From positions 1-37,529 of the forward strand of contig VEOW01000005.1 in the NCBI GenBank assembly GCA_012026785.1: a stretch of DNA of 37,529 nucleotides, read 5' to 3'. The DNA is from Chloroflexota bacterium (GTDB lineage: Bacteria; Chloroflexota; Limnocylindria; Limnocylindrales; CSP1-4). Position numbers and translations under genes: made by a program. This document shows, piece after piece, positions 3,168 through 37,483 of this stretch (the first letter of the stretch is position 1; each line of letters opens with the position of its first letter). A model generated the notes under the pieces. It was not told the DNA's origin and searched no databases. It saw nothing but the letters and a program-made list of their open reading frames with translations.

Positions 3168-3175
3168 CGGGAGGC

Positions 3176-3187
3176 ACGGTATACCAT
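3176..3187. promoter_or_regulatory. Overlapping divergent -10 elements around a GGTATACC palindrome
   Basis: Only 27 bp separate the GNAT start (3167, minus) and the ligase start (3195, plus). The palindrome GGTATACC (3178-3185) supplies a TACCAT hexamer on the plus strand (3182-3187, 7 nt before ATG) and TACCGT on the minus strand (3181-3176, 8 nt before ATG). Both transcripts would begin at or within a few bases of their start codons. Polymerase could bind in only one direction at a time. Confidence 0.5.
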
Positions 3188-3194
3188 CGCCCGC

Positions 3195-18971: not shown

Positions 18972-18972
18972 C

Positions 18973-19497: not shown

Positions 19498-19623
19498 CCC
19501 GCTGCTCCCTCGGTTGGTGGATTCGCGATTCGGTTCAGGTCGGGTCGTTTGGCCCTTTCGGGCAGGATGACCGGCAGGGCCACGGCGAACCATGCATCGG
19601 CCGGTATGTTTTGGGCATAGGGG

Positions 19624-21180: not shown

Positions 21181-21810
21181 TCAACCCTGGCCGGCGATCC
21201 GGGCCAGGGCCGCGTCCATGCCGGCTCGATCGAGCGTCCCGACGCGGACCTCGCGGAGGACCCCGTCGCGATCGACGAAGAAGTGCGACGGGATGCCAAG
21301 GATGCGGTACTCGGTGGCCATCCGGCCGGTCGGGGCGGGGACCCGGACGTAGGTGAGGCCGACCCGACCGGCGTAGTCAGCCACGGTCGCGGGGTCCTCG
21401 TTCATGTAGAACTGGACCACGACCAGGCCGCTGCCGGCGTGGGCTTCGAAGGCCGCCTGGATGTCCGGGTTCTCGGCTCGGCACGGCTGGCACCACGTCG
21501 CCCCGAAGGTGATCCAGACGGGCTTGCCGGCGAGGGCCGCGAGGCTGACCTCGGAGCCGTCGAGCGCGGTGGTTGCGAACGGCGGGGCCGCCTGGCCGAC
21601 GATCGGCGCTGGCCCTGTCGGCGAGCCGACCAGGTCGACCGGGGTCAGACCATCGGCGGTCGTGGCCGGTCGGTTGACGAGGGCCGCCACGGCCAGGATG
21701 ACGACCGCGGTGACGGCCATCAGCGCGAGGTTGCCGAAGCGGCCCCGCCCCGGCCGCACCAGGCCTGATCCGGTGGCGAGTGCCGGCGTGGCGGCCAGCT
21801 GGCGACCCAT
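21181..21810 (-). CDS. resA: ResA/TlpA-like thiol-disulfide oxidoreductase
   Basis: This is a membrane-anchored, externally facing thioredoxin-fold protein (209 aa) that reduces the CXXCH cysteines of apocytochromes before heme attachment. An N-terminal helix (LALMAVTAVVILAVAALV) is followed by the TlpA-type domain with active site WCQPC (C107, C110) and the cis-proline strand GIPSHFFVD. It receives reductant from CcdA, encoded three genes upstream. ATG 21810 is preferred: TGAGG lies 8 nt before it, and ATG 21843 would overlap ccsA by 23 nt. Confidence 0.92.
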   Translation of the reverse strand: MGRQLAATPALATGSGLVRPGRGRFGNLALMAVTAVVILAVAALVNRPATTADGLTPVDLVGSPTGPAPIVGQAAPPFATTALDGSEVSLAALAGKPVWITFGATWCQPCRAENPDIQAAFEAHAGSGLVVVQFYMNEDPATVADYAGRVGLTYVRVPAPTGRMATEYRILGIPSHFFVDRDGVLREVRVGTLDRAGMDAALARIAGQG

Positions 21811-21820
21811 CGTCGCGGCC

Positions 21821-22708
21821 TCAGTCGAGGCCGGCGTAGGCATGCAGCCCGCCGAAGAAGTAGTTGCCGAAGTAGGTGAACAGCGTCGCGGCGAAGCCGA
21901 ACATCAGCAGCCACGCGGCTCGCCGTCCGTGCCAGGCCCGGACGACCCGAGCGTGGAGGTACGCGCCGTAGATGAGCCACGTCACGAGCGAGGCCGTCTC
22001 CTTGGGATCCCAGCCCCAGTAGCGGCCCCAGGCGATCTCGGCCCACAGCGCGCCGAGGACGATGACGAGTGTCAGGAACGGGAAGCCGATGACGACGGCC
22101 CGGTAGCTGATCTCGTCGAGGATCGCCGGCCGCGGCAGGCCTCGGCGACCCGTCTCGGGCTGGATCAGGTACAGCAGCGCCGCCCCGAAGGCGACCGAGA
22201 AGCTGCCGTAGGCGACGATCGCCACCGCGACGTGGACGGTCAGCAGCAGGTTGTTCTGCAGCGCCGGCACGAGCGGCTCGGCGGCCGACGGGATCGTCGT
22301 CGCGTAGAGCAGCAAACCGATCGTGACCGGCAGCACCACCAGGCCGAGGGTCCGGAGGTGGTAGCGCCGTTCGAAGTACAGGTACACCCCCAGCGCCCCC
22401 CAGGCGAAGGCGACCGAGAACTCGTACATGTTCGAGAACGGCCCATGGCCGACGTGGATCGTCCGGAAGATGAGCGACGCCGCCAGGAACACGAACGCCA
22501 GCCAGGCGATGAGGGTCCCGTAGGTGGCCAGCGTGGCCGCGGCGCGCGAGCCGCTGACGGTGATCGTGCCGCCGCCCGCGCCCGCGCCGGCGAGGGCCGG
22601 TCGATTGGCCTGCATCCGGGCGAGGACCATCCCGGCCACGTAGCACGCGAACGCCAGGCCGGCCGCGAGGAGGCCCGCCACGAATGCGTACTCCGACATC
22701 TTGAACAT
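21821..22708 (-). CDS. ccsA: Cytochrome c synthase subunit CcsA/ResC
   Basis: This integral membrane protein of 295 aa, with ResB, forms the System II cytochrome c synthase that exports heme and ligates it to CXXCH. The heme-handling WWD-type segment is visible as WAEIAWGRYWGWDPKETAS, followed by an external His in YLHARVVRAWHG. About eight membrane helices are predictable, and SLIFRTIHVGHGPFSNMYEF is a typical CcsA region. The start ATG 22708 has AGGCAGG just upstream and lies 8 nt after the resB stop. An ATG three codons later is an alternative. Confidence 0.95.
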   Translation of the reverse strand: MFKMSEYAFVAGLLAAGLAFACYVAGMVLARMQANRPALAGAGAGGGTITVSGSRAAATLATYGTLIAWLAFVFLAASLIFRTIHVGHGPFSNMYEFSVAFAWGALGVYLYFERRYHLRTLGLVVLPVTIGLLLYATTIPSAAEPLVPALQNNLLLTVHVAVAIVAYGSFSVAFGAALLYLIQPETGRRGLPRPAILDEISYRAVVIGFPFLTLVIVLGALWAEIAWGRYWGWDPKETASLVTWLIYGAYLHARVVRAWHGRRAAWLLMFGFAATLFTYFGNYFFGGLHAYAGLD

Positions 22709-22716
22709 CTGCCTGC

Positions 22717-24183
22717 CTACCCTTCTCGACTGGGCGCCGGATCCAACCCGGCGCGGACGTCCTCGATGAGCGAGCCGAACGCGGCCTCGAAGGTCACGTC
22801 ATGTCGCGTGATCGCCGCGACCTGGATGCGCGCGCCGCCCGAGATCGGCCGAACGCGAGCCCACAGCCGGCGGGCTGGGAAGAAGAAGACCAGGGCCACC
22901 CCGCCGACCAGCAGCAGCGTGCCCAGCCACACGAGCGGCGCCCCGGGATCGCGCGAGGCGATGAGCCCGGTGAACTGCCGCTCGCGGAGGAAGGTGAAGT
23001 CGAGCCCGGCGACCGTGACCGGCTGGCCCTGGTCGACGACCTCGATGGCGGTCGGCGTCGAGGCCGTGCCCTGGTAGACCTCCAGCTGCATCTGGCCCGG
23101 ACGGATCGCCGGATCGACTCGCCCCGACGCGACCCCGATGACGTAGACGACGAGGTTCTGGGACGGCAGGGCGAAGCGCCCGATTGCCTTGGTGTCGTCG
23201 TTCGAGCGCCACAGCAGCGGCACGCCCGACTCGTAGACGAATGCCCCACTCGAGTCGGTCACCCGAACGTCGGCCGCCGGCCCGTAGAACGACTGGAAGA
23301 ACGACACGTCGCCGTAGCGCAGCGGGTCGTTGACCCGGATGGTCCGTTCCGCCACCTGGACGCCGTTCTCGTACAGCACCAGGTGGCTCGCGTAGTCGGC
23401 CGGCCGACCGTCGTCGTAGTAGGAGTCGCTGAACGACACGGCCTCGATCTCGAGGTTCGTGCCGTTGCCGATGGCGACCTTGGAGCCGACCGCGACCGCG
23501 AGGTCCTCGACTCGGAATCCGGCCTGGCCGAGCACGGCACCGGCCAGGATGAAGATGAGGCTCAGGTGGGCGATCACGGTCCCGAATGGCGCCCAGCGGA
23601 AGCGATCCGCGTACAGCGCGACCGCCTCGCCGTCGGCGCTCTCGATCGTCCGGTAGCCGCGGTGCGCGAGGGCTCGCTGGAGGGCGGCCCGGGCGACCTC
23701 CGGGGTCGTCGCGGCGTCGAGCAATTCGGCCAGCGGAGCGTGCTCCAGGAAGCTCTCGCTGACGGTCGTACGAGGGCGGGTCGCCTGGCGCCACAGCAGC
23801 GGGCTTCGGTTGATCGAGCAGGCGAGGATGCTCGTCGACAGCAGGACCACGCCGCCCTTGAACCAGATCGAGTTGAAGACCGAGAACAGTCCGAGGGCGT
23901 CGAGGATCCCGGTCCAGCCGCCGAACCGCGGGCGGATCGCCTCGAGCCAGCCCTGGTACGCCGCCGGATCGCCGGCGATGCCGGGCGGCGCCTGGGCGAC
24001 GAGCGTGCCGACGAGGGCGAGGGCCGCGAGGAACAGGAGCAGCGCCAGCCCGGTCCGCATCGAGATGAACAGGTGCCACAGGCGGTCGGCGAGGTCGGTG
24101 ACCGGCAGGCTCAGCTCGCCCTCGATGTCGTCGAGCGGGTCCTGTGCCGCCTGGAGCGTTCCGGTGCGGGCCGTTTGGCTCAT
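22717..24183 (-). CDS. resB: Cytochrome c synthase subunit ResB/CcsB-like
   Basis: This 488-aa membrane protein is the ResB partner of CcsA, holding the apocytochrome during heme attachment. It has three N-terminal helices (ALLLFLAALALVGTLVAQAP, FKGGVVLLSTSILACS, FGTVIAHLSLIFILAGAVLG), a large extracytoplasmic beta-rich domain, and a C-terminal helix (VWLGTLLLVGGVALVFFFPA). The FNSIWFKGG and AHLSLIFILAG segments are characteristic. ATG 24183 is chosen for the AGAGG site 7 nt upstream; it starts 10 nt after the ccdA stop. A longer frame to 24240 overlaps ccdA. Confidence 0.94.
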   Translation of the reverse strand: MSQTARTGTLQAAQDPLDDIEGELSLPVTDLADRLWHLFISMRTGLALLLFLAALALVGTLVAQAPPGIAGDPAAYQGWLEAIRPRFGGWTGILDALGLFSVFNSIWFKGGVVLLSTSILACSINRSPLLWRQATRPRTTVSESFLEHAPLAELLDAATTPEVARAALQRALAHRGYRTIESADGEAVALYADRFRWAPFGTVIAHLSLIFILAGAVLGQAGFRVEDLAVAVGSKVAIGNGTNLEIEAVSFSDSYYDDGRPADYASHLVLYENGVQVAERTIRVNDPLRYGDVSFFQSFYGPAADVRVTDSSGAFVYESGVPLLWRSNDDTKAIGRFALPSQNLVVYVIGVASGRVDPAIRPGQMQLEVYQGTASTPTAIEVVDQGQPVTVAGLDFTFLRERQFTGLIASRDPGAPLVWLGTLLLVGGVALVFFFPARRLWARVRPISGGARIQVAAITRHDVTFEAAFGSLIEDVRAGLDPAPSREG

Positions 24184-24193
24184 CGTGATGCCT

Positions 24194-24925
24194 CTAGATG
24201 CCGAAGGACGGGATGACCTGGGACAGCCGGCTGAAGGCATTGGTCAGCATCAGGAAGCCGATGCCGACGAGCATTGCGCCGGTGATTCGGGACACGGCCT
24301 GGTGGTGGCTCCGCAGCCAGCCGAGACGGCCGCTGACGCTGGCCGCGCCGAGTGCCACGAGGACGAAGGGAATTGCGAGCCCGATGGAATAGGCGATGAG
24401 CAGGAGCGTGCCCTCGGCGACGGTCGAGCTGACCGAGGCGAGGCCGATGATCCCGCCGAGGATCGGGCCGACGCAGGGCGTCCAGCCGGCGGCGAAGACC
24501 ACGCCCAGGAGGGCCGAGCGGCCGTAGCTGGGCGGCCCGACCGGCGCACCGAACTGGCCCGTTCCGCCGAGCGGACTGACCGGCAGGCGAACCTCTCGCC
24601 ACAGGGCGGTGACGTTGATGACGCCGGCCACGTGGAGGCCCAGGAAGACGAGGACGGCGCCACCGACCTGGCGCATCAGCCAGGCCTGATCGCGCAGCGC
24701 GTAGCCGAGCAGCCCGACCGAGGCCCACAGGCTGATGAAGACCACCGAGAAGCCGGCCACGAAGGCCAGCGACTGGAGCAGCGCGACGCGTCGCTGGTTC
24801 GGGGTGCCCTGCGGCGCTGCGCCGACCATGTAGCCGACGTAGGCCGGCACGAGCGGCAGGCAGCAGGGTGACGCGAACGAGACGACGCCGGCCAGGAGAG
24901 CGAGCGGGATGCCGACCAGGCCCAT
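24194..24925 (-). CDS. ccdA: CcdA-type transmembrane thiol-disulfide transporter
   Basis: This 243-aa membrane protein of six helices carries reducing equivalents from cytoplasmic thioredoxin to ResA. The two conserved reactive cysteines sit in SPCCLPLVPAY (C21, with an extra C22) and WTPCVGP (C151), each next to a proline as in CcdA/DsbD. The C-terminus ends at the membrane, without a DsbD thioredoxin domain. ATG 24925 has a full GGAGG site 8 nt upstream and starts one base after the upstream TPR gene stop, so translation is coupled. Confidence 0.95.
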   Translation of the reverse strand: MGLVGIPLALLAGVVSFASPCCLPLVPAYVGYMVGAAPQGTPNQRRVALLQSLAFVAGFSVVFISLWASVGLLGYALRDQAWLMRQVGGAVLVFLGLHVAGVINVTALWREVRLPVSPLGGTGQFGAPVGPPSYGRSALLGVVFAAGWTPCVGPILGGIIGLASVSSTVAEGTLLLIAYSIGLAIPFVLVALGAASVSGRLGWLRSHHQAVSRITGAMLVGIGFLMLTNAFSRLSQVIPSFGI

Positions 24926-24926
24926 C

Positions 24927-26132
24927 TCAGCTGCCTCCGGTCGCGCTTGGTACGGCTGCCGGCGAGGCGGATGCGGCCGGCTCGGGAGACGCTGACGACG
25001 CGGGCTCGGGCGATCCCGCAGGGGACGCTCCGGGCGAGCCGCTTGCCGCCGGCACCAGGCCCTCGAGGTGGGCCGCCACGGTCTTGGCGATGTCGCTGTC
25101 GGGGTCGAGCTCGATGACCTTGCGCCACTCCTGCTCGACCCTCGCGAGGTCCGGCGGCTCCTGGGCCAGGTACAGGAAGCCGAGGTCGTAGTGGGCCTCG
25201 ACGTTGTCCGGCTCCAGCTCCACGACCTTGGTCCAGGCCGTCTCGGCCTCATCGAGCTTGCCGAGGTTGTAGGCGGCGGCACCGGCGCCGAGCAGGGCCG
25301 AGATGTTCTCCGGCTCGACGGCCAGGAGCTTGTCCAGCCAGAGCGCGGCGGTCGCGAAGTCGTTGACCCCGAAGTAGATGTTCGCCAGTCCCTGGAGCGC
25401 CTCGACGTCCTCCGGGTCGGCGGCCAGCCGCGTCATCAACGCCGTGACCTGGGCCTGGTCGACGACCGGACCGCTGGCCTGGGGAGCCGGTGTGCCGGTG
25501 AGGCCGGGGACCGACGGCTCGCCGAGCTTGAAGCCGATGACACCGACGGCGCCGAGGGCGACCACGATCCCGGCCGCGAGGCCCACCCGCCGAAGGCCGC
25601 CGCGACGGGCCTCGGCCCGAACCTCGAGCTGGCCGGCTCGGCCGCGGACGACGCGCTCGACGTGCCGGCGGCGCTCGGTATCCGGACGCGGGGTGACCGC
25701 GGGCTCGTACCAGTCGCCGCCCCCAAGGGCGTCACCGAGCATCGCCGCTCCGGCATGGTTGCCGTTTCGCCGCTCTCGGGTTGCCGCCCGAGATCGATCG
25801 CGTTGGCCCGTCGCACGGCGGCCCTCGCGTGACGGCGCAGGCACGGGTTGGTCGACGGACTGGAGATCGTCTCCCAGCAGGGCGGTCTGCTCGGCCGTGC
25901 GGGTGCCCGGATGCCCGCCGGTCCGAAGCAATACGTAGGCCTCGTCGGCCTCTCGCATCCGGGCGTAGGCCCAGGCGCGAAGGGAGGCCGGCGCGGTGGT
26001 GAGGAAGGCCGCGATCTCGTCGTGCGCCGCCTCGACCTGGTCGTCGCTCGCGGCCCCGTTCAAGCCGAGACGACCCAGCAGCGTGACCTCGCTGCTCGGG
26101 GGGCGCTCGGGGTCGTGGGACGAAGGGCGCAT
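24927..26132 (-). CDS. Membrane-anchored TPR protein (CcmH/NrfG-like maturation factor)
   Basis: This 401-aa protein has a charged, poorly conserved cytoplasmic N-terminal region of about 190 residues and one membrane helix (LAAGIVVALGAVGVIGFKL). Three to four TPR repeats follow (VEALQGLANIYFGVNDFATA, ISALLGAGAAAYNLGKLDEA, VEAHYDLGFLYLAQE). The C-terminal ~40 residues are Ser/Ala/Pro-Glu low complexity. TPR proteins of this layout (CcmH/CycH, NrfG) present apocytochromes to the heme ligase. Its position directly before ccdA-resB-ccsA-resA supports that role; the partner is inferred. ATG 26132 is 11 nt after the upstream gene's stop. Confidence 0.8.
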   Translation of the reverse strand: MRPSSHDPERPPSSEVTLLGRLGLNGAASDDQVEAAHDEIAAFLTTAPASLRAWAYARMREADEAYVLLRTGGHPGTRTAEQTALLGDDLQSVDQPVPAPSREGRRATGQRDRSRAATRERRNGNHAGAAMLGDALGGGDWYEPAVTPRPDTERRRHVERVVRGRAGQLEVRAEARRGGLRRVGLAAGIVVALGAVGVIGFKLGEPSVPGLTGTPAPQASGPVVDQAQVTALMTRLAADPEDVEALQGLANIYFGVNDFATAALWLDKLLAVEPENISALLGAGAAAYNLGKLDEAETAWTKVVELEPDNVEAHYDLGFLYLAQEPPDLARVEQEWRKVIELDPDSDIAKTVAAHLEGLVPAASGSPGASPAGSPEPASSASPEPAASASPAAVPSATGGS

Positions 26133-26143
26133 CGGACTGCTGC

Positions 26144-26668
26144 TCAGGCCGGTGGGAGCGGCGTGACCGTTCCCGGGGCCCGGCCCCCGAAGGTCGCGTC
26201 GACCTCGTCGCGAATCTCTGCCAGCGACGCGCCGTCGGCGAGCATCTGCTTGGCCATCAAAGCCGTCTCGACGCAGACATCGCAGTACGAGGCGTGCTCC
26301 TCGAACTCGAGCGAGGCACCCGGTTGGGTCGGCTTGAAGAAGCAGTCGAGGTTGCTGCGGTGGTCCATCGCCACGCAGCCGCAGTAGCACGGCAGCCAGG
26401 TAATGACGTCCGGCCGCGCGAGCGCGTAGGCGTAGGCGGCCTCGATTCGGGGATGGCTCCGGACGTAGTCGGGTCGGACGTTCCAGGTGGCCTGGGCCGC
26501 GGCGTCGAAGGCCGGGTCGCCCATCGCCGGCGTGTGCTCGGCCGCCGGGCCGCCGACCCAGCCGTCGGGCTCGCTGCCACCGCCGCAGGCGACGACCGTC
26601 GGCGCGACCAGGAACGTCAGGGCGATCACGAGTGCAAGGCGGATGCTCGGGCGGCGCAGTCTGTCCAT
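26144..26668 (-). CDS. PCYCGC-motif lipoprotein
   Basis: This is a 174-aa putative lipoprotein. A basic N-terminus and hydrophobic helix (LALVIALTFLVAPTVVA) end at a lipobox-type Cys. The mature part has the diagnostic PCYCGC motif (LPCYCGCVAMDH), a further Cys in NLDCFF, and a CxxC in SYCDVCVETALMA. The family function is not established; the cysteine pairs suggest metal binding or thiol chemistry outside the membrane. ATG 26668 is preferred because it begins the signal peptide cleanly and has GACAAT ending 6 nt upstream; ATG 26704 is an in-frame alternative. It opens the maturation cluster, so a role in cytochrome assembly is inferred. Confidence 0.82.
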   Translation of the reverse strand: MDRLRRPSIRLALVIALTFLVAPTVVACGGGSEPDGWVGGPAAEHTPAMGDPAFDAAAQATWNVRPDYVRSHPRIEAAYAYALARPDVITWLPCYCGCVAMDHRSNLDCFFKPTQPGASLEFEEHASYCDVCVETALMAKQMLADGASLAEIRDEVDATFGGRAPGTVTPLPPA

Positions 26669-26788: not shown

Positions 26789-29080
26789 TCAGTAGCGCCA
26801 GTTCCCGTGATCAACCCCGTGGCAGCGGAGCGTGCAGCCGTTGCCGGCGTCGTCGTAGTCGAGGACTCCCTGGTAGGTGGGGTTGCTGCCCCCGTACGGC
26901 TGGACGTTGGGCGCGAAGTTCACGAGGCGGCGCTCGGGTTCCTGGCCGTCCACGGCGTAGGTCGTGCCGTGGGTCCGGAAGTGGCACTCGGCACACAAGG
27001 CGTTGCCGAGCCCGGCCCCGTCGTCGTCGACGGTGCCGCCGAGCGGTCCGCTGAAGGACTGAATGTCCGCCGTATGGGTGCCGTGGAGCGGGAAGTTGCT
27101 GTCCAGGCGGGGACCCTGGCTGGTGTCGACGAACGGCGCCTCGGCGTGGCAGACATAACACAGAGCGAAGTTCGACGCCTGGTACGCCGCGGACGGGCTC
27201 TTCAGGTCCCGGTCACGCAGCGGCGCGATGAGCATCGAGCGGTTCGGGACCGCGTGCGGGGCGAGGGGGCTGCCCGGATCTGGCGGCGCGGCCGGGTTGG
27301 CCTTGCGGGAGTCGCCGTGGCAGCTCACGCAGCGGACCGTCGAGTCGACGCTGAACGTCCACAGCTTGTAGGGCGAGGTGCCCTGGAGGCTGCGAGCCAT
27401 CTGGGACGTCGAATTCGTCCCCGCGGCTTCGACCGGGTGGTAGGACGCGTTGGCCGGGTTGAGCTCGACCGCCTTGTCGAGGGCCCACGTCGATGGGCCT
27501 CCGGTCTGCGGCTGGAGGTCGGTGAAGCCGGAATGGCACTTGAAGCAGAGCTGGTACTCGAAGGTCGACTCCTGCTGCCACTCGTAGGTCGGCTCCGTGC
27601 CTGCGGCGCCATTCGTGACGACCACGCCGGCGGCGCCGAGGAGCGGTCCGGAGGCCGTCCAGCCGGCTGCCGTCTGGGCAGCCGGGCTTGCGTCGGAGCG
27701 GTGGGGCTGGTGGCAGTCGGCGCAGGCCGCATGCCGGTCGAGGACGCCCTCGACCTCGGGCTCGCGATCGCTGAGGTGCGTGGAGGCGGTCGTTGCCGGG
27801 TGCGAGTACCACGAGCCGGTGTCGGGATCGTTGGCCGGGACCGTCGGGGCGGTGTACTCGGCATCGATGTTCGCGGTCGCCCCGGTGCCGTCATGGCAGG
27901 TCAGGCAGAGGTTGGACTGGGGCGGCGGCTGGATCGCCAGGAGCGGCCCCTGGGCCGTATGGGTGGCGTGGCAGGCCGCGCACTTGTCGGTCGTGAGCGT
28001 GTAGTCGCCGTGCGGCGTGACGAACGCCTCGGCGCTCAGCGCCCACGTCGTCGCAACCCGCGGCGCGCGGATCGACGGTGCCCCGACGACCTCGCCCGAT
28101 CGCTGGCCGGCCGACAGCTCGACCGGTGGGCGGCCGCCCATTCGAAGCATCGCCCCCTCGAGCATCTCGACGGCGTCGGGGCCGTCGGCCAGGCGAACCG
28201 CGTACGTTGCTAGCCACGCGGCGCTGGCGGTGGCCCGCACCGTGAAGGAGATCTCGGTGAACTCGTGGGCCGCGAGGGTGATCCGGGCGGCCGGGTTGAC
28301 GCCCGCCACGGCCAGGCCGGCCGCGGCGATTCCGGCAGGGCTGTCGCTCGTGGCCAGGCGGAGGTCGGCGACGGCGATGGTTCGAGCTCCCTCCTCCTCG
28401 CCGCGCAGCACGTTCGCGCTCGTGTACAGCGCGACGTCGGGCACTGGGTCGATCGCCGGGACGCGCTGCCAGCTGTCCGGCTCGGCCCCGAAGCCGAATT
28501 CGACGACCGGTCGGATCTCGATCGCTGCCTCGGCGTCGTTGACGACCCGGAATCGGACGACGTAGATCTGACCCCGCTCCACGCCCACGGCGGGAGCATC
28601 GAGCGCCCCGGCTTGAAGGGTTCCCGTCCTTCGATCGAGGGTGTCGATCCAGACGTGGTCGACATGCAGGCCGAGCGGCGCAGCGGTCGGGCTCGGCGAC
28701 GGCTCGAGGCGCGGATCGGCCGACGGATCGGACGACGGATCGGGTAGCGGCTCGCTCGAGGGATCCGGTGTCGGGTCCCAGGTCGGCTCGGGCGCCGGCG
28801 ACGGCTGGGGTTCGGCGGTCGGCGCCGCCGTCGGCTGCGGTTCGAACGTCGGTGTCGGCTCGGTCCCCGGGGTCGGCTCACTGCCCGTTGTCGGGCTCGG
28901 TTCGTCCACGGCGGTTGGGCTGGGCTCGGTGCTTGCCTCGGCGGTCGCTTCGGGGGCGGGAGTCGGCTCGAGTCCCGCCGTCATGCCGGACGTGACCGTC
29001 AGGGTAATCGCGACGAGCAGTGACTCCGCCACGAGCAGCAGGCCGGGCCGGCGCAGTCGACCTCGGCGGTGCGCGCTCAT
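26789..29080 (-). CDS. Large multiheme cytochrome with Pro/Thr-rich linker and beta domain (7 CXXCH + 1 CXXXCH)
   Basis: This 763-aa exported protein has a signal/anchor helix (LLLVAESLLVAITLTVTSGM, 14-33). A striking Pro/Thr/Ser/Glu linker (about 38-135) follows, then a beta-rich non-heme domain (about 137-345), then the heme part from about residue 366. Heme sites are CAACH, CLTCH, CADCH, CFKCH, CVSCH, CYVCH and CAECH, and near the C-terminus GCTLRCHGVDHGNWRY, a CXXXCH site. Several sites are followed by a second His (CHATH, CHQPH), typical of bis-His doubled-CXXCH cytochromes. The linker resembles a cell-wall-spanning spacer. The ATG overlaps the upstream hexaheme gene stop as ATGA. Confidence 0.88.
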   Translation of the reverse strand: MSAHRRGRLRRPGLLLVAESLLVAITLTVTSGMTAGLEPTPAPEATAEASTEPSPTAVDEPSPTTGSEPTPGTEPTPTFEPQPTAAPTAEPQPSPAPEPTWDPTPDPSSEPLPDPSSDPSADPRLEPSPSPTAAPLGLHVDHVWIDTLDRRTGTLQAGALDAPAVGVERGQIYVVRFRVVNDAEAAIEIRPVVEFGFGAEPDSWQRVPAIDPVPDVALYTSANVLRGEEEGARTIAVADLRLATSDSPAGIAAAGLAVAGVNPAARITLAAHEFTEISFTVRATASAAWLATYAVRLADGPDAVEMLEGAMLRMGGRPPVELSAGQRSGEVVGAPSIRAPRVATTWALSAEAFVTPHGDYTLTTDKCAACHATHTAQGPLLAIQPPPQSNLCLTCHDGTGATANIDAEYTAPTVPANDPDTGSWYSHPATTASTHLSDREPEVEGVLDRHAACADCHQPHRSDASPAAQTAAGWTASGPLLGAAGVVVTNGAAGTEPTYEWQQESTFEYQLCFKCHSGFTDLQPQTGGPSTWALDKAVELNPANASYHPVEAAGTNSTSQMARSLQGTSPYKLWTFSVDSTVRCVSCHGDSRKANPAAPPDPGSPLAPHAVPNRSMLIAPLRDRDLKSPSAAYQASNFALCYVCHAEAPFVDTSQGPRLDSNFPLHGTHTADIQSFSGPLGGTVDDDGAGLGNALCAECHFRTHGTTYAVDGQEPERRLVNFAPNVQPYGGSNPTYQGVLDYDDAGNGCTLRCHGVDHGNWRY

Positions 29081-30402
29081 GGGTTATCCAGGACGCCCGT
29101 GTACGGCACCGTGCGCGTCGGGTCGTGGCAGGCCTGGCAGGTGCCGCGGTTGTCGATCTTCAGCAGCCGGCTGGAGCCCGATGTCGAGGCGCCGGGGTAG
29201 GGGAAGTCACCCGAGTAGGCACCCGGCATCGCGGCGTTGGAGCCGTGGGCGACGTGGCATTGGGTGCACTCGCTCTCGTTGGTCTGGTGGCGGTACATGT
29301 AGATGGCGTCGCCACTTGGTGTGGTCGCGGCGCTGCGCGGTGCCGGGTAGCGGGTGTGACAGGCGGCGCACCAGGCCGTCATCTGGGCTCGCCAGCTCGC
29401 CCCGACCGTGCCGGCGGGCTGGTCGCCGATGCTGCCCGTCGCCGGGACGATCCCATGCGAATCGGCGTCGGGCGAGTCGGGGTCGTAGGTCGGCACGCCA
29501 TCCCACGACCGCCACGACCGCCAGTAGTCACCAGCGGTGGGATCGGTCCCCGTCTCGCTCACGAGCGTCCCCGGGATGACGGTGTAGTTGCGCGTCTCGC
29601 CGGCAGGCGGGAGCGGTGCGTCGGTGACATCGATGCCGGGATCGGCGACCGGAGTGAATGTGCCGCTCGTTGCGGGCGGCGCGGGGATCGGGTTGAGGAT
29701 CCGGTAGCGGCCGTTGCCGTGCGGGTTGTGGCACGACGTGCAGCCGAGCTCCACGGTTGGCCCTGCGCCAGCCGTCCCGAGAGGGCCGTTGCCCCACGCC
29801 GTGCCGGTCCCCGTGACGCCACCGTCGCCGTCGAGGTCGAGGTGGGCCGAGGTAGCCGCCAGTCCCGCCGGGAGCACCGGCACGAGGGTCGAGAAGCGGC
29901 TGACGACTCGGCCGCCCCGGCCATCGAAGCGGGGGTAGGACAGGCGCGATGGACGCAACGCTGCCGAGGCGTCGCTGCCGGAGCCGATGCGGGCGTAGGC
30001 GAAGCCGCCGCCCCGCAGGGCCCCCGCGACGGCGGTTGGGTCGGTCTCGTCCTGCGGCGCGTCGCCGAGGGAGCCCGCCGAGCGGAACTGGATGCCCAGC
30101 GTCACGTCAGTCGTTGCGCCCAGCCCGGCGGAGCCGTGACAGGTCAGGCAGAGGGCATCCGGCGTCGTGCTGACGATCAGGTACTCGCCCTGGGCGGTGT
30201 GCGCCCGGTGGCAGCCCGCGCAGGAGTCGGCGGTCAGAGTGGTGAGGCCGGAGTTGGCGTCCGCGACGTGCGGGCCGCCGTCAGCCGAGGCGATCGGCAC
30301 ACTGAGGATGAGTCCGGCGCCCAAGAGAAGCCAGGCACCGAGGATTGCGGTCGCCGTGGCGACCGATGCGCGAGCTCCGGTCCCGAAGACGGCGCGGCTC
30401 AC
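29077..30402 (-). CDS. Exported hexaheme cytochrome, OmcS-like (copy 1)
   Basis: This is a 441-aa protein with a signal peptide (ending about ASA, residue 40) and six CXXCH sites: CAGCHRAH (61), CLTCH (85), CTSCHNPHG, CAACH, CTQCHVAHG and CQACHD at the C-terminus. It is a clear paralogue of the next gene, sharing LTADSCAGCHRAHTAQGEYL and SRLLK(I/V)DNRGTCQACHDP. The order of hemes and accessory motifs (CxxCH-x2-H, GGGF, SAH, CxSCHxPHG-YRIL, WCAxCH, RHQ, CxxCHxAHxS) matches, from memory, Geobacter OmcS, whose hexahemes polymerise into filaments. Polymerisation here is inference. GTG 30402 has a GGAG Shine-Dalgarno site 7 nt upstream. Confidence 0.9.
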   Translation of the reverse strand: MSRAVFGTGARASVATATAILGAWLLLGAGLILSVPIASADGGPHVADANSGLTTLTADSCAGCHRAHTAQGEYLIVSTTPDALCLTCHGSAGLGATTDVTLGIQFRSAGSLGDAPQDETDPTAVAGALRGGGFAYARIGSGSDASAALRPSRLSYPRFDGRGGRVVSRFSTLVPVLPAGLAATSAHLDLDGDGGVTGTGTAWGNGPLGTAGAGPTVELGCTSCHNPHGNGRYRILNPIPAPPATSGTFTPVADPGIDVTDAPLPPAGETRNYTVIPGTLVSETGTDPTAGDYWRSWRSWDGVPTYDPDSPDADSHGIVPATGSIGDQPAGTVGASWRAQMTAWCAACHTRYPAPRSAATTPSGDAIYMYRHQTNESECTQCHVAHGSNAAMPGAYSGDFPYPGASTSGSSRLLKIDNRGTCQACHDPTRTVPYTGVLDNP

Positions 30403-30431
30403 GTGTCCTCTCCTGGCGCGTTCAAGTGGTC

Positions 30432-30463
30432 GTGGTGGCCGGGACGAGGTCGCCGGCCACCAC
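30432..30463 (-). other. Intercistronic hairpin between the twin hexaheme genes
   Basis: A perfect 11-bp stem, GTGGTGGCCGG (30432-30442) with CCGGCCACCAC (30453-30463) and a 10-nt loop, lies 14 bp after the stop of the upstream hexaheme gene. No T-run follows. It may be an RNA processing or stability element that sets different levels of the two cytochromes, or a weak terminator. Confidence 0.5.
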
Positions 30464-30477
30464 CGATTGGTTCGCCG

Positions 30478-32022
30478 TTATGGAACGTCGGGCATCGGGT
30501 CCGGGCCCAGGTACGTCCCGGCGGAGATCGTCCCCGTCGGGTCGTGGCAGGCCTGGCAGGTGCCGCGGTTGTCGACCTTCAGCAGTCGGCTCGAGGCCGA
30601 GGTCGACCCGTCCGGATACGGGAAGTCGCCCGTGTAGTCACCGGTCATCGCGGCGTTGGAGCCGTGTGACACGTGGCACGTCAGGCAGTCCCGTCCGGCG
30701 ACGGTCCGGTGCTGATGGTTGAACAGCGAATCGCCGGGGCGCGGATAGCGCCACGACGCGCCGGTGTCCAGCGGGTCAGCGGTATCGGGGTTGGGGTTGT
30801 TGTTTGCGAAGTACCGGGTGTGGCACGACGCGCACCAGGCCGTGATCTGCGCACTGAAGGTCGAGGGTCGCCCGTTGGGGGCACTGTTGGCCGTCGCGCA
30901 GCCAGGCTGGACGCTCGTGCTGTTGTTCACCGTCGGATCGCAGGTGGCGTTGATGCCGGGGTTCCACGGAACGTTGCGGGCAAAGTAGTCGCCGCCCGTC
31001 TCCGTGTAGTCCCCGGGGATGCTGTTGAAGGTCCCGGCGAGCGCTGCCGCCTCGACCTGGCTCGCATAGAGCAGGTACGTCGATTCGGTGCCCTCGGTGC
31101 CCTTCACCTGCATGACGGTGTAGTTCCGGGCGTCGTCTGCGGCCGGCAAGGTCGCGTCGGTGACCGGAACGCCACTCGTTCGCTCGACGGTGCCCTCCGC
31201 GCCACCGTCGGCGAGCACGTTCACGCCGGTCAGCGTGAAGTAGTTCGCAGAAACGGTTGCGACGGTGTAGCTCCCGTCCGCCACGGTGCTGTTGCCCGTG
31301 ATCTCGACCGTGTCGCCGACCAGGAGCGCGTGCGAAACCTCGGTGTAGATCCGATCGTTCGACGCGACCGTGGCCAGGATGTCGAGCTCCCAGACGTCAC
31401 TCATCCCCGTGGCTTCGGGGATCTTGTTGAGGATGCGGTACTGGCCGTTGCCATGCGGGTTGTGGCACGAGCCGCACGTCACGGTGACTGACGGTCCGGC
31501 GCCGCTCCCGACGGCCCCGTTGCCCCAGGCGACGCCCGGGTTGGCGAGACCGTTGGCGGCCATCTCGATGTGGGCGGAGGTGACGGCTTCCGCCGCACCC
31601 ACGCCAACCTTCGGTCGCTGCGACGCATCGGTGGCGTTTCGCAGATAGGTCAGCCGCGCCATGTTCCCGGCATCGATCCGGGCCATGTCGAAGCCGCCAC
31701 CGCGGAGCGCACCCAGGACGGCCGTCCCTCTCGGGTCGGTCGTGCCGACGGCGTACTGCAGGCCGGTCATGACATCGACCGCGGAGCCGGTGCTCGCCGC
31801 GCCGTGGCACGTCAGGCAGAGGCCCTCGGTCGAGGTTGCATTGATCAGGTACTCGCCCTGTGCCGTGTGGGCACGGTGGCAGCCCGCGCAGCTGTCGGCT
31901 GTCAGGGTGCTGAACCCCGAGTTGTTGCCAGCCACGTGGACGCCACCATCCGCAAACACAGGGAACGCGGCGAGGAACAGCCAGAGCGTGGCCCCTGCGA
32001 AGAGCAGGGCCAGACGTCTCAC
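30478..32022 (-). CDS. Exported hexaheme cytochrome, OmcS-like (copy 2, with beta insertion)
   Basis: This 514-aa protein has a signal peptide (LALLFAGATLWLFLAAFPVFA) and six CXXCH sites (CAGCHRAH at 46, CLTCH at 69, CGSCHNPHG, CASCH, CLTCHVSHG, CQACHD), in the same order as copy 1. Between hemes 3 and 4 it has about 75 extra residues of beta-repeat type (VGDTVEITGNSTVADGSYTV, then ANYFTLTGV), absent from copy 1. Two non-heme Cys in ATCDPTVNN...PGCATAN may form a disulfide. GTG 32022 is chosen for a perfect AAAGGAGG site (32038-32031) 8 nt upstream, the strongest in the window. High expression is plausible. Confidence 0.9.
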   Translation of the reverse strand: MRRLALLFAGATLWLFLAAFPVFADGGVHVAGNNSGFSTLTADSCAGCHRAHTAQGEYLINATSTEGLCLTCHGAASTGSAVDVMTGLQYAVGTTDPRGTAVLGALRGGGFDMARIDAGNMARLTYLRNATDASQRPKVGVGAAEAVTSAHIEMAANGLANPGVAWGNGAVGSGAGPSVTVTCGSCHNPHGNGQYRILNKIPEATGMSDVWELDILATVASNDRIYTEVSHALLVGDTVEITGNSTVADGSYTVATVSANYFTLTGVNVLADGGAEGTVERTSGVPVTDATLPAADDARNYTVMQVKGTEGTESTYLLYASQVEAAALAGTFNSIPGDYTETGGDYFARNVPWNPGINATCDPTVNNSTSVQPGCATANSAPNGRPSTFSAQITAWCASCHTRYFANNNPNPDTADPLDTGASWRYPRPGDSLFNHQHRTVAGRDCLTCHVSHGSNAAMTGDYTGDFPYPDGSTSASSRLLKVDNRGTCQACHDPTGTISAGTYLGPDPMPDVP

Positions 32023-32030
32023 TGTTCCCA

Positions 32031-32082
32031 CCTCCTTTCTGCTGTGATGGGTCTTGGCGGTGATAGCCGCCCATCCGGCGGC
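32031..32082 (-). promoter_or_regulatory. Strong RBS and competing hairpins before hexaheme copy 2
   Basis: AAAGGAGG (32038-32031, minus strand) sits 8 nt before GTG 32022. Just upstream, the segment 32066-32071 can pair with either 32077-32082 (GCCGCC/GGCGGC) or 32056-32060 (CCGCC/GGCGG), giving two mutually exclusive hairpins. This could be a translational switch or chance in GC-rich DNA. Confidence 0.4.
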
Positions 32083-32123
32083 CAGCGGGTCACTCGGGTG
32101 CACCTCCTCCGGGACGCCTTCCA

Positions 32124-33209
32124 TCAGTAGCTCCATAGCTGGACGCGGTCGTTGTTGGTGTCGCTCACGTAGAGACGGCCCCGGCCGTCGGCGGCGACGC
32201 CGTTCGGGAAGCTGAAGCGGCCGTCGGCGATTCCCTCGCCCCCGAAGAAGCCGAGGTATTCGAGCGTCGGGGTCACGTCGTCAGTCAGGCGATAGACGAG
32301 GACGCCCTGGCCGGTCGAGTCGCCGACGTAGATTCGGTCACGCCCGTCGGTCGTCAGCCCCCGGGGCAGGGCGAGCGCGCCCTTGCCGGTCCCTCGGCCG
32401 ACCTGGGCCAGCAGCGTCCCGTCAGCCCTGTAGGCCAGCAGGCGGCCGTTGTTGCTGTCTGCGACCAGGACGTTGCCGTCCTTGTCGATCGCGACGCCGT
32501 TGGGGAACGACAGCCGGTCGCTCTCGCCGAACGTCTGGACGAGGGTCAGCCCTCGATCGAACTTTTCGACGCGGGCAGTCGGACCGGACAGGTCGCTCAC
32601 GTAGAGGTTGCCCGCAGCGTCGAAGGCGAGGCCCATCGGCTGCCAGGCGGGGATGCGGCTGGCGAGAACCACCTCGCGGAGGAAGGCGCCGTCGCGGTCG
32701 TAGACGTAGATCGTGCCCATCGGCCGGTCCGACACGTACAGCTCGGAGGACATCGGGTCGATGGCCATCCAGACCGGCACATGGTCGGTCCCGGTCGAGG
32801 TCGGTGGGACGGCGGTGCCGACGATGGCGCCACCGGCGGCGTAGATGAGGACGGCCCGGTCACCCTCCGTCTGGGCGACATAGACGCGGTCGCCGTCCGG
32901 GCTCACTGCGATCCCGAGCGGGTTGGCGGCGCCGTAGAAGCTCGTGCTGTAGCCGGGCAGATCGATCGTCGTCGGGATCGGCAGCGGCAGCGGCTGGCGG
33001 AAGATGAAGTACCACAGCGCGAGGCCGATCAGGACGAGGAGCAGGCCGAGCAGGGCCAGCAGGGCGATCCAGCGTCGCCGCCGGCGGGACTCGTCGTAGT
33101 CTTCCGCCGTCGGGCCTCCCGGCCCGCCCTCCTGCTGCACGTCCTCGGGGAGCTCGACCGGGGCGTCGAGGCCCGGTGCCAGCTCGGGGTTGGCCGTGAT
33201 GCCGGTCAT
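32124..33209 (-). CDS. Membrane-anchored NHL-repeat beta-propeller protein
   Basis: This is a 361-aa protein with an acidic cytoplasmic N-terminus, a basic stop (RRRRRW) and one membrane helix (IALLALLGLLLVLIGLALWY). An extracytoplasmic six-bladed NHL propeller follows. Blades are recognisable from repeats such as PLGIAVSPDGDRVYVAQ, PMGLAFDAAGNLYVSD, PNGVAIDKDGNVLVADSNN and PNGVAADGRGRLYVSDTNND. It has no heme or metal motif. NHL proteins are also found beside omcS-type cytochromes in Geobacter (from memory), where a role in secretion or assembly is suspected. It starts at ATG 33209, overlapping the upstream TPR gene stop as ATGA. Confidence 0.9.
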   Translation of the reverse strand: MTGITANPELAPGLDAPVELPEDVQQEGGPGGPTAEDYDESRRRRRWIALLALLGLLLVLIGLALWYFIFRQPLPLPIPTTIDLPGYSTSFYGAANPLGIAVSPDGDRVYVAQTEGDRAVLIYAAGGAIVGTAVPPTSTGTDHVPVWMAIDPMSSELYVSDRPMGTIYVYDRDGAFLREVVLASRIPAWQPMGLAFDAAGNLYVSDLSGPTARVEKFDRGLTLVQTFGESDRLSFPNGVAIDKDGNVLVADSNNGRLLAYRADGTLLAQVGRGTGKGALALPRGLTTDGRDRIYVGDSTGQGVLVYRLTDDVTPTLEYLGFFGGEGIADGRFSFPNGVAADGRGRLYVSDTNNDRVQLWSY

Positions 33210-34165
33210 GATCCGCTCCCCTCGGCGTCAGTCGGGGTCGGGCCGACCCGGCCCAGCCCGAGGCCCGCGGCGCTGCTGGCCGGATCGATCTCGAGGGCCC
33301 GGCCGTACCATTCCGCGGCCCGGGCGTTGTCACCGCCCGTCTCGTACAGCAGTCCCAGCCCGATGGCCGCATCGAGTGCCGCATCACCCTCGACGAGGGC
33401 CAGCAGGGCCGGTTCGGCCGCCGCGCTGTCACCTGACATCAGCTGGGCCATCGCGGTGGCCCAGGCGCCCAGGGCTGCCTCGCCGGTCGCCTCGTACGCC
33501 TCGGCCAGGGCGACGTACGGCTCGCTCCAGCCGACCGGCACGAACGTCACCGAGGCCCGCAGGACGGTGATCGCCTTGCTTGGCGCCCCGGTGGCGATGA
33601 ACGCGGTACCGAGGAGGTACAGGGAGTCGGCGTCGGAGCGGCTGATCGCGAGGGCCTTCTCGAAGTGGCCGATCGCATCCTGGGGGCGGTCCTGCTGCAT
33701 CGCGATCGAGCCGAGGCCGTAGTAGGCAGCCTGCAGGCCCAGGTCGACGTGAGCCATCTCGCCATCCTTCGCGACCGCGACGACCGCTTCGAAGGCCTGG
33801 GCGGCTTCGTCGAGCCGGCCGAGCTCCTGGAGCGCCCGGCCCCGGCCGAGGTGGGCGGGTTCGAGGCTGACGCCGGCCGCGATGATCACGTCGTACTGGG
33901 CGATCGCCTCCACGTAACGGCCCTTGGCCGCATACGCGTCGGCAAGCTGTCCGCGGACGGCGATGTCGTTGGGGTTGTCGCGGACGGCCTGCTCGAGGCC
34001 CGCGATCTGCTGGTCGACGATCGCCGGCGCCGGTGGCCGCCAGCGGTCGGCGGCGTAGAAGGCCGCAAAGGCGAGGAAGGCCAGGACGACGAGCAGCGCC
34101 ACGCGCTTCGTCCAGCGCGTGAGGTCTGCATCGGATGCGTTTCGGACCGTGTGGATGGCATTCAT
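33206..34165 (-). CDS. Membrane-anchored TPR protein
   Basis: This 319-aa protein has an N-terminal membrane helix (VALLVVLAFLAFAAFYAADRW) followed by about six TPR units on the outside (DIAVRGQLADAYAAKGRYVE, PAHLGRGRALQELGRLDEA, AAYYGLGSIAMQQDRPQDA, DADSLYLLGTAFIATGAPSK, and a C-terminal ARAAEWYGRALEIDPASS). It differs from the CcmH/NrfG-like TPR protein at 24927-26132 and is coupled by ATGA overlap to the NHL gene. A scaffold or chaperone role for the secreted hexahemes is inferred. The start ATG 34165 has a weak AGGA site 9 nt upstream. Confidence 0.88.
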   Translation of the reverse strand: MNAIHTVRNASDADLTRWTKRVALLVVLAFLAFAAFYAADRWRPPAPAIVDQQIAGLEQAVRDNPNDIAVRGQLADAYAAKGRYVEAIAQYDVIIAAGVSLEPAHLGRGRALQELGRLDEAAQAFEAVVAVAKDGEMAHVDLGLQAAYYGLGSIAMQQDRPQDAIGHFEKALAISRSDADSLYLLGTAFIATGAPSKAITVLRASVTFVPVGWSEPYVALAEAYEATGEAALGAWATAMAQLMSGDSAAAEPALLALVEGDAALDAAIGLGLLYETGGDNARAAEWYGRALEIDPASSAAGLGLGRVGPTPTDAEGSGS

Positions 34166-34384: not shown

Positions 34385-34780
34385 TCAGGAGGCGACCGGT
34401 GCGGTCCCGTGCGGGGCCCGACGGCCGGGCGTCGGACGCGAGCGCCGGGCTGCCGGGGCCCCCTGGATCGCGCGCAGGATGTCCTCGGGCTGGGGCGACA
34501 GCTCGTCCCGGTGATAGGCCCAGCTGGAACCGGCGTCCAGCCCGACGTCGATGAGCAGGGCAGCCGGGGCCAGGGCGAGGATGTCAGGGGCCTTCAGGGC
34601 GCCACGCTCCATCACGATCACGTCCGGCGCGTCGGCGAGCACGGTCGCGGCCGCCTGGAGATCTTCGACGTGGACGGCCTCGATGGCGAGGCCCGCGTCG
34701 GTGCGCAGGATGCGCGCCAGGCCCTCGCCGAGGAGCGGGTGCGCGTACAGGATGACGACGCGCCGAGCGTTCCTTGGCAC
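34385..34780 (-). CDS. Degenerate receiver-domain protein
   Basis: This 131-aa protein resembles a response-regulator receiver fold without an output domain. The opening strand reads VVILYAHPLLGEGLARIL, where the acidic metal-binding pair should follow the first strand but is absent. The phospho-acceptor position reads PDVIVMERG, with Glu58 in place of Asp. The C-terminal ~25 residues are basic and probably disordered. It likely cannot be phosphorylated and may mimic an active receiver. GTG 34780 is chosen for its GGAGG site 5 nt upstream; longer frames have no support. It sits between a true two-component system and the cytochrome operon. Confidence 0.7.
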   Translation of the reverse strand: MPRNARRVVILYAHPLLGEGLARILRTDAGLAIEAVHVEDLQAAATVLADAPDVIVMERGALKAPDILALAPAALLIDVGLDAGSSWAYHRDELSPQPEDILRAIQGAPAARRSRPTPGRRAPHGTAPVAS

Positions 34781-34949
34781 CACTGCCTCCGTCACGAGCG
34801 AAGTCGGGTTCGAAACTAGCCCTGCCGAACGCGGCCGTCCATCCGCTGGTGGGCACACCTTCGGTGCGGTTCGCTGTACCCAGCGGGGGAGTATCGAGCG
34901 AGCCATGCGAGCGCGCGGGCACCGAGCGGCGCCGCCGAAACGGGGCTCC

Positions 34950-35639
34950 TCAGCCCTCGCTGCCGAGGCGCAGCCCGAGCCCGTGCCGGACGACGTACGC
35001 CGCGGCCTGGATGCGGTTCTCCAGCTGCAGCTTCTCGAGGGCGTTGTGAACGTGGTTCTTGACGGTGCCCTCGGTGATCGACAGCCGGACGCCGATCTCC
35101 TTGTTGCTGAGGCCGTCGGCGACGAGCTGCATGATCTCGATCTCGCGCCGGGTGAGGCTCGGCTCGGGCGCGCTCGGCGTCGCCACGCGCCGGCCTTCCG
35201 GTCGTTCCCGGAACTCTCGCAGCAGCCGTCCCGCGATCGCCGGCGAGAGCACGGTCTCGTCGCGCATCACCGCCCGGATGAGGTCGTACAGCTGCTCCGG
35301 CCGAAGATCCTTCAGGAGGTAGCCGTGGGCGCCGTAGCGGATCGCATCGAAGAGGTGGTCGTCCTGCTCCGAGACGGTCAGGATCACGACCTTCGCGCTC
35401 GGGACCTCGTCCCGGATCCGGCGTGTGGCCTCGACGCCGTTCATGACCAGCATCTCGATGTCGAGCAGGACCACGTCCGGCTTCAGCGCGTGGGCCAGCT
35501 CGAGGCCCTGGAGCCCGTTGTCGGCCTCGCCGACGACGACGAGCCCTGGCTGATCGCCGACGAGGGTCGCGATGGCCCGCCGGAACAGCGGCTGATCGTC
35601 GATGAGCAGGATTCGGATCTCGGCGGTCATCTCGTGCAT
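34950..35639 (-). CDS. NarL/FixJ-family response regulator
   Basis: This 229-aa response regulator has a receiver domain (acidic pair DD in LLIDDQP, phospho-acceptor D60 in VVLLDIEM, T89 in ILTVSEQ, K110 in GYLLKD) and a C-terminal LuxR-type helix-turn-helix (LTRREIEIMQLVADGLSNKE, then GTVKNHVHNALEKLQL). It should be phosphorylated by the sensor kinase encoded one base upstream and bind promoters, probably including the downstream cytochrome genes. The start is ATG 35639, directly after the kinase TGA; ATG 35630 is an equally possible start. Confidence 0.93.
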   Translation of the reverse strand: MHEMTAEIRILLIDDQPLFRRAIATLVGDQPGLVVVGEADNGLQGLELAHALKPDVVLLDIEMLVMNGVEATRRIRDEVPSAKVVILTVSEQDDHLFDAIRYGAHGYLLKDLRPEQLYDLIRAVMRDETVLSPAIAGRLLREFRERPEGRRVATPSAPEPSLTRREIEIMQLVADGLSNKEIGVRLSITEGTVKNHVHNALEKLQLENRIQAAAYVVRHGLGLRLGSEG

Positions 35640-35640
35640 C

Positions 35641-37398
35641 TCAGTTTGGCGCCACCATCGCACCGTTGCCGGACCGCCCGCGCGAGCCGTCGGGAACGAG
35701 CGCGATGATCCGCGTGCCGCGACCGGGACCCGAGTCGATCCGCAGGCTCCCGCCGGCCAGCTGCATCCGCTCGCGCATCGTCTGGAGGCCGTAGCCACCG
35801 TCCCGGCTCTCCGGTGCGGCGTCGGGGTCGAACCCCCGGCCGTCATCCTCGACCACGATCGCCATCGTGCCCGGCTGGCCGGACGCGATCCGGCCGCGGG
35901 CGGTGGTCGCCCGGGCATGCTTGCGAACGTTCGTCAGGGCCTCCTGGATGACCCGGATGACCTGGATCTCGCTGGCTGCCGGCAGGGCGAGCTCGCCGTC
36001 GATCGTCGACTCGAACTCGACCGACAGCCCCGATTGCTGGGCGTACTTGTCGATGTAGGCGCCGAGCGCCTCGACCAGGCCCTGCGTGCGGCTCGCCTCG
36101 CGCAGTCCGAGGATCGCCTCGCGAACGTCGCGGTAGGCCTCCTCGTTGACCGCCGCGAGGTCCTCCAGCTCGCCGCTGATGCGACCACGGCCGGCGACCT
36201 CGGGACGGGCGAGCAGGGTCCGTAGGCGCAGGTGGTTGCTGCCGAGGACCTGGGCCAGGCTGTCGTGCAGCTCGCGAGCGATACGGTCGCGCTCGGCGAG
36301 GATCGCCCCCTGACGATCGCGCTCGCGGAGCCGGCCGCTGGTGATCGCGATCGCCGCGATTCCGGCGAGGGTCATGAGGTAGCGGCGATCCCGCTCGGAG
36401 AAGGCTTCGCCGGTGCGTCGGGCGATCCACAGCTCGCCGAGCAGCTCGCCGGGTGCCCAGATCGGGACCCGCAGCGCGGCGCCGTAGCTGGCCTCGTCGC
36501 CGATGGGGCAGCGATGGCGGCGCGTCGCGGCGGCCGTCGAGCGCGCGTCACCAGCGCTTGGCAGCTCGCAGGCCAGGCCGTCGGCGAGGGCGGCCGACAG
36601 CTCGGCGTTGGCGGCGAACGCCTCGAGCGTCGCCGGCGACAGGCACAGTCGGCCCTCGTCGGCCACGAGCCGCTCGCGGGCGCCCTCGACGATCGCCGTC
36701 AGGGTGTCGGCGAGCGGGACGTGGTTGGAGATCTGGAGCAGGGCCTGGTAGAGGGTGTGGCCCTCGTTCTTGCGACGCTGAAGATCGCTCACGAGCTGGG
36801 CGATCTGGACGGCTGCGGCGACCTGATGGGCGGCCGTCGAGAGCGCCTCGGACGACGGCAGCTCGGAAAGCCGGGCAGCGGGCAGGCGGATGTGGACCCG
36901 ACCGATCGGTGCCGCGCTGGTGGACAGCGGCAGCTCGACGAGATGATCCGGCGTCGCCAGGGCGTCCAGGTGGCCGTCGGCCGCCTGCACCGAGACCTCC
37001 CGGGGTGGCCCGGCCTCGGCGTCCAGCGGGTGGATGGTGGCTCGAGCCTCGGTCGCCCCCGTCGATTCGACGATCGCGTCGAGGGCGTGCCGGACGACAC
37101 CGTCGACGTCGACGTCGCCCTGGATGGCGGTCGCCACCGCATCGACGTAGGCCAGGTCCCGGTTGCGGCGGATGACGTGACGCTGCGCCCGCTCGAGGTA
37201 CAGGAAGATCGCCAGCCCGAAGGCCAGCGCGAAGGCGACCCCGAGGCCGGCGGCGACGAGGTTCGAATGGGGGGCCTCGAAGGCCGGCGCGATCAGCGCT
37301 GCCCGGCACAGCTCGAAGATCGCCAGGAACACGATCGGCGCGGCGATGCCGATGCGCTTGAGACGACGGAGATCGCGGAGACCCGCTTGCGCGTCCAC
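35641..37398 (-). CDS. NarX-type sensor histidine kinase with GAF-like domains
   Basis: This membrane sensor kinase is about 585 aa. Two N-terminal helices (about 17-36 and 47-68) with a short external loop anchor it. Two GAF-like regions follow (about 90-215 and 230-350), so it likely senses a cytoplasmic or redox signal. The HisKA_3 phospho-acceptor box is ERDRIARELHDSLAQVLG (H378). The ATPase has an N box (EALTNVRKHARA), G1 (VEDDGRGFDP) and G2 (GGYGLQTMRERM). No CxxC or heme motif is seen, so the ligand is unknown. GTG 37398 is preferred (AGAAGG 5 nt upstream); an in-frame TTG at 37443 is possible. It pairs with the adjacent NarL-type regulator. Confidence 0.9.
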   Translation of the reverse strand: MDAQAGLRDLRRLKRIGIAAPIVFLAIFELCRAALIAPAFEAPHSNLVAAGLGVAFALAFGLAIFLYLERAQRHVIRRNRDLAYVDAVATAIQGDVDVDGVVRHALDAIVESTGATEARATIHPLDAEAGPPREVSVQAADGHLDALATPDHLVELPLSTSAAPIGRVHIRLPAARLSELPSSEALSTAAHQVAAAVQIAQLVSDLQRRKNEGHTLYQALLQISNHVPLADTLTAIVEGARERLVADEGRLCLSPATLEAFAANAELSAALADGLACELPSAGDARSTAAATRRHRCPIGDEASYGAALRVPIWAPGELLGELWIARRTGEAFSERDRRYLMTLAGIAAIAITSGRLRERDRQGAILAERDRIARELHDSLAQVLGSNHLRLRTLLARPEVAGRGRISGELEDLAAVNEEAYRDVREAILGLREASRTQGLVEALGAYIDKYAQQSGLSVEFESTIDGELALPAASEIQVIRVIQEALTNVRKHARATTARGRIASGQPGTMAIVVEDDGRGFDPDAAPESRDGGYGLQTMRERMQLAGGSLRIDSGPGRGTRIIALVPDGSRGRSGNGAMVAPN

Positions 37399-37483
37399 CG
37401 TTCCCTTCTCTGACGCAGGCCCGGACGACGGGCCATGTGCCAAACAGTGTCACGCGATCGCCCTCAACCAGGGAGGCCGGTTC

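Follow-up and report, generated by a model that had tools for sequence, protein, structure and literature searches.

A bacterium of the phylum Chloroflexota, which appears to have no outer membrane, carries a conserved gene cassette for relatives of the Geobacter nanowire protein OmcS together with a stalked, putatively surface-exposed cytochrome that could tie such a wire to the cell, suggesting that electron-conducting wires may also exist in single-membrane bacteria. The stretch of DNA analysed here (the window; 37,529 nucleotides, 72% G+C) is an entire contig, VEOW01000005.1, of a 3.77 Mb, 260-contig metagenome-assembled genome (GCA_012026785.1). A preliminary description of positions 29077-34165 proposed two paralogous exported hexaheme cytochromes resembling tandem OmcS and OmcT, preceded by membrane-anchored and translationally coupled NHL and TPR proteins, and inferred a nanowire or wall-crossing conduit in a probably single-membrane bacterium. 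The genes are there as described, so this observation is confirmed, whereas the interpretation placed on them is only partly supported: OmcS-family homology, a conserved non-motif His for every heme, NHL and TPR as fixed partners, and a probable single membrane are all supported, but filament formation remains an inference.

All genes of the cytochrome region lie on the - strand. The two exported hexahemes, hexA (30478-32022, 514 aa) and hexB (29077-30402, 441 aa), each contain six CXXCH motifs in the order claimed by the preliminary description, from CAGCHRAH at the start to CQACHD at the end, and are paralogues with 49% and 42% identity in the two BLASTP blocks. The start of hexA is most likely the GTG at 32022, behind an AAAGGAGGTG ribosome-binding site (32029-32038), rather than 32136 as first thought. 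hexA and its nearest relatives also carry an extra beta-rich-looking segment between hemes 3 and 4 (IYTEVSHALLVGDTVEITG...YFTLTG) that hexB lacks, and for which no Pfam family was reported. Upstream, the TPR protein (33206-34165) and the NHL beta-propeller (32124-33209) each have one N-terminal hydrophobic segment, are predicted to be extracytoplasmic, and overlap each other by 4 nt, consistent with translational coupling. However, the NHL-hexA gap is about 101 nt and the hexA-hexB gap 75 nt, so coupling does not extend to these cytochromes.

The region first described stops short of a third cytochrome (26789-29080), which overlaps hexB by 4 nt, and of the co-located maturation and electron-entry genes. 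Beyond the third cytochrome, Pfam searches identified a PCYCGC-motif protein (PF13798; 26144-26704), a CcmI/CycH-like TPR protein that is conserved among relatives (24927-26390, start uncertain), a CcdA/DsbD-TM cytochrome maturation protein (24194-25282, start uncertain), the System II proteins ResB (22717-24240; cytochrome c maturation) and CcsA (21821-22708; heme handling), and a TlpA/ResA-like thioredoxin (21181-21843). These are followed by a NapC/NrfH-headed membrane cytochrome with 10 CXXCH (19624-21168; Pfam and NCBIfam), likely involved in quinol oxidation, a Rieske protein (18973-19593), a cytochrome b with b6 and subunit IV parts in one protein (17886-18971; Pfam and NCBIfam), and a decaheme cytochrome with a C-terminal membrane anchor (16363-17904; the ORF extends to 18534 and the start is uncertain). 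The last three (16363-19593) form a conserved group, an unusual bc-type complex with a multiheme partner in which cytochrome b has partial similarity to ExtP/ExtQ models. On the other side of the cassette are a NarX/NarQ-like sensor histidine kinase with GAF, HisKA_3 and HATPase domains (35641-37443, start uncertain) and a LuxR/NarL-type response regulator (34950-35918, with its true start inside the ORF), which are co-located with the cassette in many loci. Between the regulator and TPR lies a conserved small protein (34385-34906) that reads like a receiver domain, although searches matched it to no family. An ATP-dependent DNA ligase with all three Pfam domains (2607-4961, + strand) is also encoded upstream of the cytochrome region.

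All relatives recovered are Chloroflexota. A scan of 84,980 genomes returned 19 loci, all from this phylum, but the scan patterns were specific to this family and the result therefore says nothing about other phyla. Profile searches matched 18 of 400 genomes sampled over the phylum, 28 of 177 in the window's class and 39 of 396 in a second class, some of these matches being partial or only the N-terminal module. The cassette recurs in about 30 non-redundant loci across Chloroflexota classes (four further loci, L094, L095, L110 and L111, duplicate earlier ones and are not counted), which argues against a chance arrangement, and TPR and NHL lie directly upstream of the hexaheme(s) in every locus whose contig reaches far enough. 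In one locus, L012, an additional short seven-heme relative of the hexahemes (6458-7528, - strand) is encoded divergently upstream of TPR.

Is this family related to OmcS? Neither hexaheme alone finds OmcS in single-sequence phmmer searches of the PDB, which returned nothing useful. A 29-row family profile, however, retrieves OmcS as its top hit among 177,635 PDB sequences (E 6.4e-8), and a 68-row profile does so with E 3.9e-11, the next multiheme cytochrome scoring 4.3e-7. The alignment runs collinearly through hemes 1-5, with heme 6 near the C-terminus in both. The OmcS sequence used, identical to 6EF8 over the full 407 residues, scores 49.7 bits, against a mean of 5.9 and a maximum of 35.7 in 500 shuffled sequences that keep the heme motifs and every His, and OmcS exceeds all 1000 shuffles. 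Across 68 family members exactly 12 His columns are invariant, six in CXXCH motifs and six others, the full complement for bis-His ligation of six hemes; the preliminary description had named the lack of a conserved distal His for each heme as grounds for rejection. Ten of the 12 align with OmcS His, including H16, and for the other two OmcS has a His in the same inter-heme interval (H2; H257 or H309). I therefore accept OmcS-family membership on the basis of sequence.

It remains possible, though unlikely, that the resemblance is convergence of generic paired-CXXCH modules in an unrelated multiheme family. MtrA-like and octaheme proteins also score in the profile search, and masking the heme Cys/His in OmcS drops its score to 0.5 bits, so the signal is heme motifs together with their surroundings rather than surroundings alone. 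Foldseek searches with AlphaFold models of both proteins returned no OmcS match and nothing informative, but one model was poor (pLDDT 53) and the other modest (67.6), and OmcS itself is reported to give no Foldseek hits except close homologues (PMC9473688), so I treat this result as uninformative rather than as a refutation. Against convergence, OmcS ranks first by four orders of magnitude in addition to the collinear alignment, the shuffle result and the aligned His. A search of plasmid records with OmcS for more Geobacter-type homologues found no match. In the phylogeny, the window-class hexahemes of both positions form one clade (100/99) apart from the second class, which rules out descent of the tandem pair from an omcS-omcT pair; duplication appears to have happened within lineages and not once before the split from Geobacter. 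The OmcS branch is very long, which might be taken to favour convergence, and its placement carries no weight.

In most loci that extend far enough, a third cytochrome follows the hexahemes. The window's version contains seven CXXCH and, at residue 749, a possible eighth heme site of unusual spacing, CTLRCH (CX3CH). Its residues 356-406 (27863-28015; PHGDYTLTTDKCAACHATHTAQG...CLTCHDGT) match the start of the hexaheme profile with 49 bits, but it does not keep the hexaheme C-terminal half. The same module starts the heme part of all 22 such chimeras that could be scored, at 28-58 bits and with the +3 His (the putative donor) kept in 22 of 22, on which grounds I rejected the idea that this gene encodes an ordinary large cytochrome. 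In the window class the module follows a signal or anchor and a linker (28667-28972 in the window) in which 86% of 102 residues are P/T/S/E/D/A, whereas in Anaerolineae-type loci it is N-terminal and followed by at least five DUF11 domains and a proline/threonine-rich tail. The stalk is thus attached at opposite ends in two lineages while the module is kept. Very large chimeras carrying or matching the same module also occur (locus L104, 8877 onward; L107, 9994 onward; L101, 7443-11458): a 36-heme 1708-aa protein, a 15-heme 1734-aa protein, and 12- and 16-heme proteins beside the hexaheme cassette. The simplest reading is that the third cytochrome is a surface-tethered docking partner of the hexahemes, and in an OmcS-like polymer it could fill only one end, although this is inference.

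As for the envelope, Omp85 was found in none of 41 genomes (this one and 40 relatives) while 7 of 14 control genomes were positive, the controls behaving as expected. A single membrane is therefore likely, in agreement with the view that Chloroflexota lack a Gram-negative envelope (cited in PMC7399161). The genome has four heme-copper oxidase hits, so the organism probably respires oxygen too, this cluster need not be its main respiratory route, and, by inference, it would use the system when oxygen is short. T2SSF-family genes, as used by type IV pilus or Tad systems, are present elsewhere in the genome, but none is tied to the cluster. The presence of Rieske, cytochrome b, NapC-like proteins and a NarX-like kinase raises the alternative of a periplasmic-type respiratory module, a variant Rieske/cytochrome b complex with soluble carriers feeding an oxidase or nitrite reductase. 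I consider this very unlikely, since no terminal reductase was recognised in the window cluster, the stalk of the third cytochrome implies surface exposure, and in some relatives the cassette occurs without nearby Rieske/cytochrome b homologues.

The explanation I favour, although it is no better than evenly supported, is an extracellular electron transfer (EET) operon in which hexA and hexB would be exported by Sec and loaded with heme by the in-cluster System II proteins. Quinol would be oxidised at the membrane by the Rieske/cytochrome b/decaheme group and/or the NapC-headed decaheme, with electrons passing outward to the hexahemes. In this view the hexahemes most likely stack head to tail into a heme chain or filament as OmcS does, one subunit supplying the CXXCHxxH His of heme 1 as distal ligand to heme 5 of its neighbour, and the third cytochrome, on a wall- or surface-spanning stalk in the versions examined, would dock on one end and tie the filament to the cell. 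NHL and TPR, both predicted to be anchored outside the membrane, would help folding or assembly. The homology, ligand set, cassette, chimera and absence of Omp85 rest on the analysis itself, but polymerisation with inter-subunit ligation, its polarity, anchoring, and the roles of NHL and TPR are inferred. In OmcS filaments one heme (505) takes a ligand from the neighbouring subunit (PMC6584659). The donor is His16, the CXXCHxxH residue of heme 1, and its equivalent is invariant here. However, CXXCHxxH is common in paired-CXXCH cytochromes such as MtrA, so a conserved H16-like residue does not prove inter-subunit ligation. Identity to OmcS is only about 26-28% over aligned columns, and loops vary strongly (about 260-600 residues per mature protein). 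Furthermore, of the four G. sulfurreducens paralogues only OmcS is known to polymerise (PMC12977616), and whether cytochrome filaments are physiological conduits at all is disputed (PMC11077965). Filament formation is thus about as likely as not, or slightly less.

A possible alternative, somewhat less favoured, is that the hexahemes stay monomeric or form short oligomers and act as wall-crossing or surface metal/humic reductases, as proposed for multiheme cytochromes of Thermincola or Ardenticatena, with the clearly stalked third protein as terminal reductase. Most multiheme EET proteins are not filaments, and Ardenticatena maritima, a presumed monoderm Chloroflexota isolate, performs anodic and cathodic EET with surface multiheme cytochromes, no OmcS relation or cytochrome filament being reported there (PMC5808234). 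Yet the closest solved relative is the filament former OmcS, and several hexaheme genes per cassette plus a conserved chimera sharing their N-terminal module fit an interacting chain better than independent reductases.

Among known systems, the closest is G. sulfurreducens OmcS (6EF8/6NEF) with its omcS-omcT-osc region, which shares the hexaheme arrangement and order of motifs (CXXCHxxH at hemes 1, 3 and 5; W-C-A-x-C-H-T at heme 4; heme 6 at the extreme C-terminus in the short relatives), tandem paralogues, and nearby TPR, beta-propeller and two-component genes. The preliminary description placed an NHL-repeat gene beside omcS; published annotations give GSU2505 as hypothetical, GSU2508 as TPR, GSU2507 as histidine kinase, GSU2506 as response regulator and GSU3586 as YVTN propeller (PMC3495685, PMC10599522). 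An osc assembly operon, with the OscD propeller, OscEFG channel and OscH isomerase, exists in Geobacter (PMC13194489 and PMC12977616, citing Shen et al., 2025). In the Chloroflexota cassette a propeller (NHL) is fixed and no OscEFG-like channel or prolyl isomerase was recognised; the Chloroflexota system further differs from OmcS in lacking an outer membrane marker, and in its conserved stalked chimera, System II genes in the cluster and independent tandem duplication. OmcE (7TFS) also has interfacial His ligation between subunits, but gave only a local match to the N-terminal heme pair (E 0.004). OmcS homologues are spread widely (PMC10954620), including one with all six CXXCH in a Coriobacteriales genome, a lineage not known for an outer membrane (PMC7399161). 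That example is a single BLAST hit at 28% identity, reported without cassette context, and no Chloroflexota member is named there as an OmcS homologue. Chloroflexota multiheme cytochromes and EET are likewise known (PMC5808234, PMC7399161), but I found no description of this cassette or of the stalked chimera in the papers I could search, which leave out most subscription papers.

These findings extend the OmcS family, with a conserved partner set, to a phylum that appears to lack an outer membrane, where the outer-membrane secretion channels invoked for Geobacter cannot apply. Filament anchoring is still described as speculative in Geobacter (PMC12307469), and the stalked chimera gives a concrete, testable candidate for how a cytochrome filament is attached to the cell and fed with electrons. 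More tentatively, single-membrane Chloroflexota may build OmcS-family nanowires with a dedicated anchoring cap, a chimeric cytochrome that would donate the interface histidine from an OmcS-type N-terminal module and tether the wire through the cell wall by a proline-rich or DUF11 stalk. Finally, with hexaheme-profile matches in the window's class and in a second class, not all of them full hexahemes, the cassette is a usable genomic marker for possible EET in uncultured sediment and aquifer Chloroflexota.
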